Shown here: in pieces, positions 4,368-57,610 of the stretch | Numbering within the stretch: the first letter of the stretch is position 1 | Layout: each line of letters starts with the position of its first letter | NCBI GenBank assembly: GCA_021823325.1 | Contig: JAKAOG010000004.1 | Coordinates: 1 to 64,000 of the forward strand | Reading direction: 5' to 3' | DNA length: 64,000 bases | From: an archaeon | GTDB taxonomy: Archaea; Thermoproteota; Nitrososphaeria; Nitrososphaerales; Gagatemarchaeaceae | Program-made: the position numbers and the translations under genes | The notes under the pieces: generated by a model | Database searches by the model: none | Seen by the model: only the letters and a program-made list of their open reading frames with translations | Told to the model about the DNA's origin: nothing

Positions 4368-4380
4368 ACCCTTAAGAAAT
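4367..4380 (+). promoter_or_regulatory. TATA box of tRNA-Tyr
   Basis: The 14-mer aacccttaagaaat is centred about 28 bases before the mature 5' end of the tRNA. The identical 14-mer recurs at 6861-6874, about 31 bases before the start of the gene at 6900. This repeat gives a good estimate of a strong promoter sequence in this genome. Confidence 0.7.
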
Positions 4381-4402
4381 CTGCAACTGTCGGGCCGCTT
4401 GT

Positions 4403-4542
4403 CCCGCAGTAGCTCAGCCTGGTAGAGCTTCCGGCTGTAGAGGTTGGCTATTGGCTGACCCGTCCAGCCTACTCAGGCCACAGTCACCGGAGTGTCGTCG
4501 GCTCAAATGAGCCCAAAAGCTCTGGGGTTCCGACCTGCGGGA
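4403..4542 (+). tRNA. tRNA-Tyr(GTA) with two introns
   Basis: The acceptor stem pairs 4403-4409 (cccgcag) with 4535-4541 (ctgcggg), discriminator A at 4542. The D arm is 4412-4428. The anticodon stem pairs 4430-4434 with 4487-4491, with anticodon GTA at 4437-4439. A 45-base intron (4441-4485) sits at the canonical 37/38 position. The T stem pairs 4497-4501 (gtcgg) with 4530-4534 (ccgac), but 28 bases lie between them instead of 7, which implies a second intron of about 21 bases in the T loop (roughly 4509-4529, boundaries ambiguous by a base or two). The spliced loop would read ctcaaat, with C rather than the usual T at position 54. CCA is not encoded. Confidence 0.88.
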
Positions 4543-4637
4543 CGTCCTAGGACTGTCCCGGGCAATCTAACCCTATTTCATGACTCGTTTCGACGGAATC
4601 TGGCGCAACAGGCTGTGTTCGTGTCTGGATCGGCTAG

Positions 4638-33078: not shown

Positions 33079-34872
33079 TCAGAACCCATACATCGGGTCG
33101 GAAGGAGACCGTATGCTGATTATCTCGTTCAGGACTTCGTGCTCTCTCTCCGTCAGCGTACCGTAGAGCTTGGTCCTGAGCAGCTTCGCCTCATGGCTAC
33201 GGGGCATCGTGAATATCGTGTCGTTCTCCTTGATCTGGCGTCCAAGCGTCGGGCCCTCGACAGAGACCGCCACCTTCTCCCCCTCCTTCACCTCGGTGAG
33301 CGACTTGCCTTGCTCCTGCACCTGCTCCACGGTCCCCAGCTCCGCGCCCTCTGCGCTCATCAGCCTCACCTTGGGGCGCAGCCTCCCAGCGACCACCTCC
33401 ACCCCGAAGACCGCGGGGCCGTTGCGTCTGAAGAAAGCGCCTGGGATCACCTTCAGCTTGCAGGGTCTGGTGAGGCTGGACAGGGCCGCTTTTTCATCCG
33501 AGTCCCTCTTGGTGGTGGCCCAGTTCACGTAGTTGTCTATGACCTCATAGATGATGCCGGAGACAAAGATCGGGCTGTCCCCGGCGTACTCCTTCGCCTC
33601 CGGGAGCACCTTCGAGTCGAAACCCAGTATCGCTCCCAGGTAAGGGTCGTGCTCCCTGACGACCTGGGCGTCGACGATGTCGTTCTTCGAAATCTCCCCT
33701 ATGTCCGCCTGCCTGACAGGGACGCCGCGCTCCTCGAGCATCCTCAGCAGCGCCTCAAGGCCGCCGATGCTCCCCGCCTTCACTATCACCCCCATGTTGT
33801 TGGTCTTCACGACGACGTTGGTGAGCTCCTTCTCCATCTCGACCTTCAGGGACTGGAACTGTTTCTCTGTGGTGAAAGACGCGACCGAGGTCCCGGCTAC
33901 GACTCCCGCGAGGTCAGGGCAGACGAGCTTCACCCCCGCCGCCGCGTGGACCGACTCCACCGGGGTGAACTTGTCCCGTGGATCGCGCATCTCGTCAAGG
34001 GGCTTCGGCATGAACAGTGCCTTCACCTTGGACTTGAACGCCCCGTCTCTCCTTACAAGCCCGATGGTATCTCCTACCCTCATCGTCCCCTCGGTCAGTA
34101 TGACGTTGGCCGTCTCCCCGATGCCTACTTCTTCCTGCATCTCGAGGATTATCCCCCGGGCTGCCCGGGACTCCTCCGTCACTTCGAGCTTCCCCTTCAG
34201 GAACTGCTGTGCGAGCCCTATCAGCATGGCCAACATCTCCGGGATCCCAGCGTGGGTCCGTGCTGAGACAGGGACTACGGACACCTGCTGGCGGAAGTCT
34301 TTGACGCGATAGTAAGCGTCGGACTGGAAGCCCAGCCGCGAGAGCCCTCCGACCACGTTGTAGAGCCTCTCCTCCAGCTCGTCGTTCCACGTCGGCGGCT
34401 GCTCTTTCATCAGCTGGGCCAGCGGCCCCTTGCTCCCCTTCTTCCAGCCAGAGATCATGTCGATCTTGTTGAGCGCGACGAGGAAGGGGACGTGCCTCTG
34501 CTTCAGGATGTCTATGCTTTCGAGGGTCTGGTTCTCGAGCCCCTTGAGTACATCCACGACGAGAATCGCGATGTCCGCAGCCGAACCACCCCTGAGCCTG
34601 AGGTTGGAGAATACGGCGTGACCGGGGGTGTCGATCATGAGCAGGCCAGGGACCTCCAGCGCCCCCCCTGCCCTGTCGAGGAGCGACCCGCTTATCTTCT
34701 GGAGAGTCTCCATCGGGAAGAAGCTCGCGCCTATCTCCTGGGTTATCCCTCCTACCTCTCTCGCCTGGACCCCGGTCCCTCTCAGGGCGTCAGCCAAGCT
34801 GGTTTTGCCGCTATCGACGTGCCCGAGGATTACTACTATCGGCTGCCTTAGGCGCCCCTTTTGGTCTGACAT
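33079..34872 (-). CDS. infB: translation initiation factor aIF5B/IF-2
   Basis: A 597-residue GTPase that promotes ribosomal subunit joining. G1 is GHVDSGKTSL near residue 17, G3 DTPGH, G4 NKID. The order of domains II to IV matches archaeal/eukaryotic IF5B, without the long N-terminal extension of eukaryotes. It lies 26 bases downstream of ndk in the conserved rpl24e-ndk-infB arrangement. Confidence 0.97.
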   Translation of the reverse strand: MSDQKGRLRQPIVVILGHVDSGKTSLADALRGTGVQAREVGGITQEIGASFFPMETLQKISGSLLDRAGGALEVPGLLMIDTPGHAVFSNLRLRGGSAADIAILVVDVLKGLENQTLESIDILKQRHVPFLVALNKIDMISGWKKGSKGPLAQLMKEQPPTWNDELEERLYNVVGGLSRLGFQSDAYYRVKDFRQQVSVVPVSARTHAGIPEMLAMLIGLAQQFLKGKLEVTEESRAARGIILEMQEEVGIGETANVILTEGTMRVGDTIGLVRRDGAFKSKVKALFMPKPLDEMRDPRDKFTPVESVHAAAGVKLVCPDLAGVVAGTSVASFTTEKQFQSLKVEMEKELTNVVVKTNNMGVIVKAGSIGGLEALLRMLEERGVPVRQADIGEISKNDIVDAQVVREHDPYLGAILGFDSKVLPEAKEYAGDSPIFVSGIIYEVIDNYVNWATTKRDSDEKAALSSLTRPCKLKVIPGAFFRRNGPAVFGVEVVAGRLRPKVRLMSAEGAELGTVEQVQEQGKSLTEVKEGEKVAVSVEGPTLGRQIKENDTIFTMPRSHEAKLLRTKLYGTLTEREHEVLNEIISIRSPSDPMYGF

Positions 34873-57492: not shown

Positions 57493-57610
57493 CGCCGGGA
57501 CAGGGATTTGAACCCTGAATTCCTTTTCAGGAAACAGGCTGTCTCCCTTTTTTGGTTTCCAGGCCTACGCAGTTGCACTTCTGCGCCCTACCAGATTAGG
57601 CGATCCCGGC
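57493..57610 (-). tRNA. tRNA-Ser(GGA) with two introns
   Basis: Acceptor gccggga (57610-57604) pairs with tcccggc (57500-57494), discriminator G at 57493, as in archaeal tRNA-Ser. The T arm (cagggttcaaatccctg) and a long variable arm (ttcc...ggaa) confirm a class II tRNA. Anticodon GGA is at 57560-57558; the anticodon stem pairs taggc (57567-57563) with gcctg (57539-57535). A 16-base intron (57556-57541) sits at 37/38. A second insertion of about 16 bases (57584-57569, gcagaagtgcaactgc, self-pairing ends) lies between the D stem and the anticodon stem, near position 25/26. Confidence 0.87.

Follow-up and report, generated by a model that had tools for sequence, protein, structure and literature searches.

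A tRNA-Tyr gene of the Nitrososphaerales with a probable second intron in its T loop

The stretch of DNA analyzed here (the window, bases 1-64000 of contig 7 of an archaeal assembly of 921 kb that is 85.65% complete) contains a tRNA-Tyr(GTA) gene whose T loop is far too large. The two strands of its T stem, GTCGG (4497-4501) and CCGAC (4530-4534), enclose 28 bases (4502-4529), which raises the question of whether the gene carries an intron in the T loop, is decaying, or gives rise to an unusual tRNA. The original prediction placed the gene at 4403-4542, with a 45-base intron at 37/38, and proposed that a second, non-canonical intron of about 21 bases would shrink the 28 bases to seven. Removal of 4508-4528 leaves exactly seven, CTCAAAT. 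We consider it highly probable that the locus is a functional tRNA-Tyr(GTA) gene with two bulge-helix-bulge (BHB) introns, which would be cut by an alpha2beta2-type endonuclease and joined by RtcB.

Gene layout and detection

The layout in Table 1 emerges from standard software once the T-loop insert is taken out. ARAGORN calls the spliced 74-mer, ending at 4542, a tRNA-Tyr(gta), and when only 4508-4528 is removed its intron option returns the 45-base anticodon-loop intron at 4441-4485, in agreement with the original prediction on both counts. With the T-loop insert kept, ARAGORN reports no tRNA with the intron option on or off, and it misses the gene in the raw window. At its gathering score the Rfam tRNA model has a single match in the window, which is another gene, and it has no match in 4380-4570 at E up to 10. 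Because both methods miss the gene, an annotation that relies on ARAGORN or the Rfam tRNA model would be without a tRNA-Tyr here. The exons carry the anticodon GTA, the pair C1-G72, and A73; C1-G72 and A73, together with GTA, are tRNA-Tyr identity elements. That a canonical tRNA is left after intron removal is indicated by the ARAGORN call and by the identical exons of a relative (G021) that lacks the T-loop insert. The 37/38 intron has a BHB of its own, with a central helix in which C32U33G34U35 forms 4/4 pairs with ACAG.

Table 1. Features of the tRNA-Tyr locus in window coordinates
Feature	Position	Strand	Basis or remark
tRNA-Tyr(GTA) gene, 74 exon bases, two introns	4403-4542	+	five blocks
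Exon 1, positions 1-37; C1, anticodon GTA at 34-36, G37	4403-4440	+	spliced alignment, ARAGORN
37/38 intron, 45 nt	4441-4485	+	spliced alignment, 4/4 central pairs, ARAGORN, conservation
Exon 2, positions 38-59; anticodon stem 3' strand, variable region, T-stem 5' strand GTCGG 4497-4501, loop C54-A59	4486-4507	+	spliced alignment
T-loop BHB central helix, exon strand C54 U55 C56 A57; partner 4523-4526	4502-4505	+	fixed-register pairing test
59/60 T-loop intron, 21 nt; inner helix 4509-4512 / 4519-4522, central strand UGGG 4523-4526, 3' bulge 4527-4529	4508-4528	+	alignment, pairing, folding
Exon 3: T60, T-stem 3' strand CCGAC, acceptor 3' strand CTGCGGG, discriminator A73	4529-4542	+	spliced alignment, ARAGORN
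Upstream box CTTAAGAAATCT, probable TATA-like promoter element	4371-4382	+	conserved in genus; promoter function putative

The T-loop insert within the genus

A DNA search over 41 genomes, with the matching stretches fetched and aligned in spliced form, located the Tyr gene in 22 of the 25 genomes of the genus (all except G004, G011, and G018). In 18 of these 22, 20-23 nt are inserted between CTCAAA or CTCGAA and T60. The insert is absent in G001, G002, G015, and G021, whose T arm is GTCGG-CTCAAAT-CCGAC. G021 agrees with the window gene in all 74 exon bases, with CTCAAATCCGAC uninterrupted, and 74/74 exon identity extends across 11 genes of the genus, the window gene included. Seven of these 11 have the 59/60 insert, in seven different versions. 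The identical-exon relatives thus serve as natural before-and-after pairs that place the T-loop splice site to the base. Since the first insert base varies between genomes (T, A, G, C) and the base preceding the T-stem 3' strand is constantly T, the site is fixed at 59/60, which refines the boundary of the predicted intron. Cutting the same intron one base later, at 60/61, would yield an identical product, since the window has T both as first intron base and at position 60. This register is nevertheless very improbable: the first intron base is A, G, or C in relatives, yet the T before CCGAC or CCTGC is kept in the genus genes seen, and the 59/60 register is the one that gives 3-nt bulges and a 4-bp helix.

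A second functional Tyr gene had been named in the original prediction as grounds for calling this one a pseudogene. None was found in the genome with the spliced gene as query, the other matches being a tRNA-Phe and 14-28-base matches to single arms. Because the assembly is 85.65% complete, a second Tyr gene could be missing from it, and such an unseen copy is what a decaying pseudogene with a random insertion, alongside a normal tRNA-Tyr elsewhere, would need. We give this explanation hardly any weight. The exons are identical at 74/74 positions to those of 10 other genes of the genus, 18 of the 22 genomes share the insertion site and largely keep the pairing, and the upstream box is also kept. 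The CTTAAG of this box starts 31-33 nt upstream of the Tyr gene in 21 of 22 genus genes, and in the sole gene without it the contig ends only 9 nt upstream.

Within the genus, an intron in the D arm at 22/23 occurs in 20 of the 22 genomes and is missing only in this genome (G000) and G021. In an aIF5B tree of 23 genomes, in which several nodes have low support (down to 0.000) and G007, G019, and G020 are represented by 116, 92, and 163 residues, G001 and G021 group with G019 and this genome (support 0.991) and G002 groups with G015 (0.824). Because the genomes without the T-loop intron fall in two aIF5B clades, this intron has most likely changed state at least twice within the genus. PMC3293823 describes the gain of introns in a natural population of archaea, and the present genus lets tRNA intron gain and loss be compared directly among close relatives. 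Gene conversion between tRNA-Tyr and tRNA-Phe was considered as a route to precise loss. It stays a guess because the Tyr T stem differs from that of Phe in G009 and G014 and because a search of the genomes without the T-loop intron gave no clear Phe gene in three of the four (G001, G015, G021). As a separate observation on the tree marker, the window's own aIF5B gene (33079-34872, minus strand) encodes 597 aa without an insertion, and those of G006, G009, G014, G017, and G023 are frames of ~1120 aa with one; the part of the G023 protein (L127) that was read has Pfam matches to intein-splicing and LAGLIDADG domains.

Pairing at the T loop and splicing genes

At the borders of the T-loop insert stands a BHB with 4/4 central pairs (one of them G-U) and the bulges AA|U and GU|U, 3 nt each. 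The strand that pairs with C54-A57 is four bases long, stops two bases short of the 3' border, and reads UGGG in the window and UGAG, UAAG, CGGA, or others elsewhere. In a fixed-register test of 16 different inserts, 14 of them taken from the 18 genus genomes and the other two from G104 and G107, 55 of 64 central pairs formed versus a shuffle mean of 24.5 (sd 3.6), a total reached by 0 of 20,000 shuffles, and inner-helix pairs totaled 70 versus a shuffle mean of 9.5. Seven inserts have 4/4 central pairs and nine have 3/4, with one mismatch; G57-C takes the place of A57-U in G007 and G104, and in the strict register the inner helix is just 1 bp in G023 and G017. Across these 16 inserts the pairing is kept as the sequence changes. 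For the window insert alone, 10 of 100,000 shuffles match its 4/4 central and at least four inner pairs in the fixed register.

Energy-based folding counts in part against the BHB. In the window T arm it has -12.6 kcal/mol versus -12.8 kcal/mol for the minimum free energy (MFE) structure and so is not itself the MFE, and the T arm alone is only modestly better than its shuffles (z -1.77, 13/200). Among six relatives folded, the BHB is the MFE in G016 and G003 only, and in G019, G006, G005, and G012 the central helix of the MFE structure is open or partly formed. For the entire unspliced precursor, the nearest-neighbour MFE structure (-61.7 kcal/mol) does not have the form of a cloverleaf, so a spliceable fold is assumed. 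The 21 bases might instead be retained, so that the tRNA would have a T loop enlarged to 28 nt. We find this scarcely credible, as homologues lacking the insert have a normal loop and the BHB stands precisely at the insert boundaries. A T loop of 28 nt is also expected to break the contact between D loop and T loop.

For removal of the insert as an intron, the genome offers suitable genes. The original prediction had suggested looking at which splicing-endonuclease subunits are encoded, and two genes of the endonuclease family were found (C4:41262-41507 and C6:9244-9498). The first product, of 185 aa, has 3p1z as its best match among solved catalytic subunits (4.8e-42) and keeps the DHAP stretch. 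The second, of 239 aa, matches 1a79 (5.1e-23) and reads KKPAKY versus KEHSVY in 1a79, with proline for a histidine that we take to be catalytic. With one gene that has and one that lacks the catalytic-site histidine, as in a two-subunit endonuclease, the pair looks like an alpha2beta2 enzyme, which its products would presumably assemble into. RtcB is encoded as well (3.3e-170). Across the genus, an endonuclease match is present in 21 of 25 genomes, the remaining four being 60-74% complete. Parts of PMC4090602 and PMC3218864 credit thaumarchaea with an alpha2beta2 endonuclease, and a section of PMC6379350 states that this type cuts relaxed motifs.

We infer the transcription of the gene, the assembly of the subunits, the cutting and joining of the RNA, and the order in which all this happens from these sequences as follows. 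A precursor would carry introns at 37/38 (45 nt) and, in the T loop, at 59/60 (21 nt), each of which would fold with its flanking exon bases as a BHB. The two-subunit alpha2beta2-type endonuclease would cut both bulges of each BHB, and RtcB would join the exons into a 74-nt tRNA with the T loop CUCAAAU, to which CCA would be added later. The spliced tRNA would read across CUCAAAUCCGAC without the 21 bases. The second, non-canonical intron is the supported reading of the T-loop insert, given its precise absence in G021, the turnover of inserts at the same site, the BHB, the presence of an endonuclease pair and RtcB, and the lack of a second Tyr gene among the search results.

tRNA-Tyr introns across the Nitrososphaerales

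An order-wide search of 161 genomes gave matches in 154 at E up to 0.001, some of which are not Tyr genes. Sixty further regions were fetched and together with the earlier ones yielded 95 parsed Tyr genes, which are a sample of the order. Dropped before this count were L044 (mis-parsed; by eye a Tyr gene without a T-loop intron), L059 (a tRNA-Phe), L038 and L079 (the same as L037 and L152, respectively), and L068 (gene cut by a contig end). A 29-letter gene pattern scanned over the named genomes gave 21 matching stretches, and records identical to included genes were left out. An anticodon-loop intron is present in all 95 genes, a T-loop intron in 51, a D-arm intron in 32, an intron at 30/31 in 31, and one at the end of the T stem in five. 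The original prediction was right that T-loop introns are a known kind; its statement that they occur in few archaea understates how common they are in the Nitrososphaerales, given these 51 of 95. In four genes the parse gives four introns, and in one it gives five. The introns parse at 30/31, at 37/38, at about 53/54, and in the T loop in L057, L169, L160, L048, and L058, with T-arm boundaries poorly placed in L048 and L160 and a possible fifth intron in L058, near 8/9 beside a doubled CCCGCGG. Among 215 introns scored, 186 have 4/4 central pairs, 25 have 3/4, and four have one or two (two in L048, one each in L050 and L160). Equivalent boundaries were picked in this scoring to favor a BHB, so the fixed-register test is the only fair test against chance; the T-loop boundary of L042 was misplaced in the scoring and fits 59/60 in the fixed register.

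These counts could be taken to mean that tRNA-Tyr is an intron hot spot of the Nitrososphaerales (15/16 or 22/23, 30/31, 37/38, 53/54, 58/59 or 59/60; four, perhaps five per gene, with single introns coming and going precisely within a genus) and that the 37/38 intron is kept for an RNA element of its own, a hairpin followed by CAGCCUA with ACA 15 nt after the core start, which resembles box H/ACA spacing. We regard this combined proposal as doubtful. In the window the 37/38 intron has the core CAGCCTA from 4465 and ACA at 4480-4482. The core recurs in 84 of 86 distinct 37/38 introns, in related genes and by a pattern chosen after the sequences had been seen. The first ACA comes 15 nt after the core start in 71 of the 84 and 13-16 nt after it in 83, and it persists in 25 of 26 introns with a BHB strand located further downstream. 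An H/ACA reading was set aside: Rfam has no H/ACA match in 4380-4570 at E up to 10, no K-turn was seen by eye in the intron, and the genome encodes TruD, the usual protein for position 35.

C54 in the spliced loop, foreseen in the original prediction, was confirmed. It also occurs in the genus Tyr genes without the T-loop intron and in this genome's tRNA-Phe, so it is a lineage trait and not a product of splicing or a sign of mis-splicing. It is found in 27 of 28 Tyr genes of family f1 and 15 of 15 of f8. The other scored families (f11 was outside the scoring) have T54 except for one of 11 genes in f10 and the single f5 gene (L048), whose C54 comes from an unsure parse.

Judged by its sequence, the gene adds a new, well-supported case to a known kind and is ordinary for its lineage. 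A section of PMC8450103 gives 107 non-canonical introns in Thaumarchaeota reported by tRNAscan-SE 2.0 and a maximum of three introns in one archaeal tRNA gene, and T-loop sites are named among non-canonical introns in part of PMC6379350. The non-canonical introns of Thermoproteales and Thaumarchaeota are alike in being short BHB introns off 37/38, several per gene, served by a two-subunit enzyme, and the window gene differs from them in no respect of kind; it has two introns, and some of its relatives in the order parse with four, one perhaps with five. The permuted tRNA-Tyr of Thermofilum pendens, as far as the excerpts of PMC3218864 go (59/60 also in PMC3978253), is the same tRNA with its junction at 59/60 and an additional 37/38 intron. 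Its halves are permuted, whereas the window gene has the normal order and a 21-nt intron at 59/60. Within the same order, family f8 has a T-loop BHB intron in 15 of 15 parsed Tyr genes, which differs in its best boundary (58/59), its exon strand (G53-C56, by eye), and its length (28-32 nt). Among the titles and abstract openings searched, none concerned T-loop introns of Nitrososphaerales tRNA-Tyr; most subscription papers and the tRNA databases lay outside this search, and we therefore do not claim that they are unreported.

Other tRNA genes encountered here also contain inserts. This genome's tRNA-Phe and tRNA-Tyr have their variable region, T arm, and C54 in common, and the tRNA-Phe (L060/L212; G000:C1:11524-11619) has an insert in its D loop, which varies among relatives. 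In G005 the tRNA-Phe (L228) has, by eye, its own T-loop insert, which is flanked by repeated TCCGGCC and looks like a short duplication. The minus strand of the window has at 57493-57610 a tRNA whose anticodon is GGA and whose variable arm is long, by eye a serine tRNA; it seems to carry an intron at 37/38 and another insert following the D stem.
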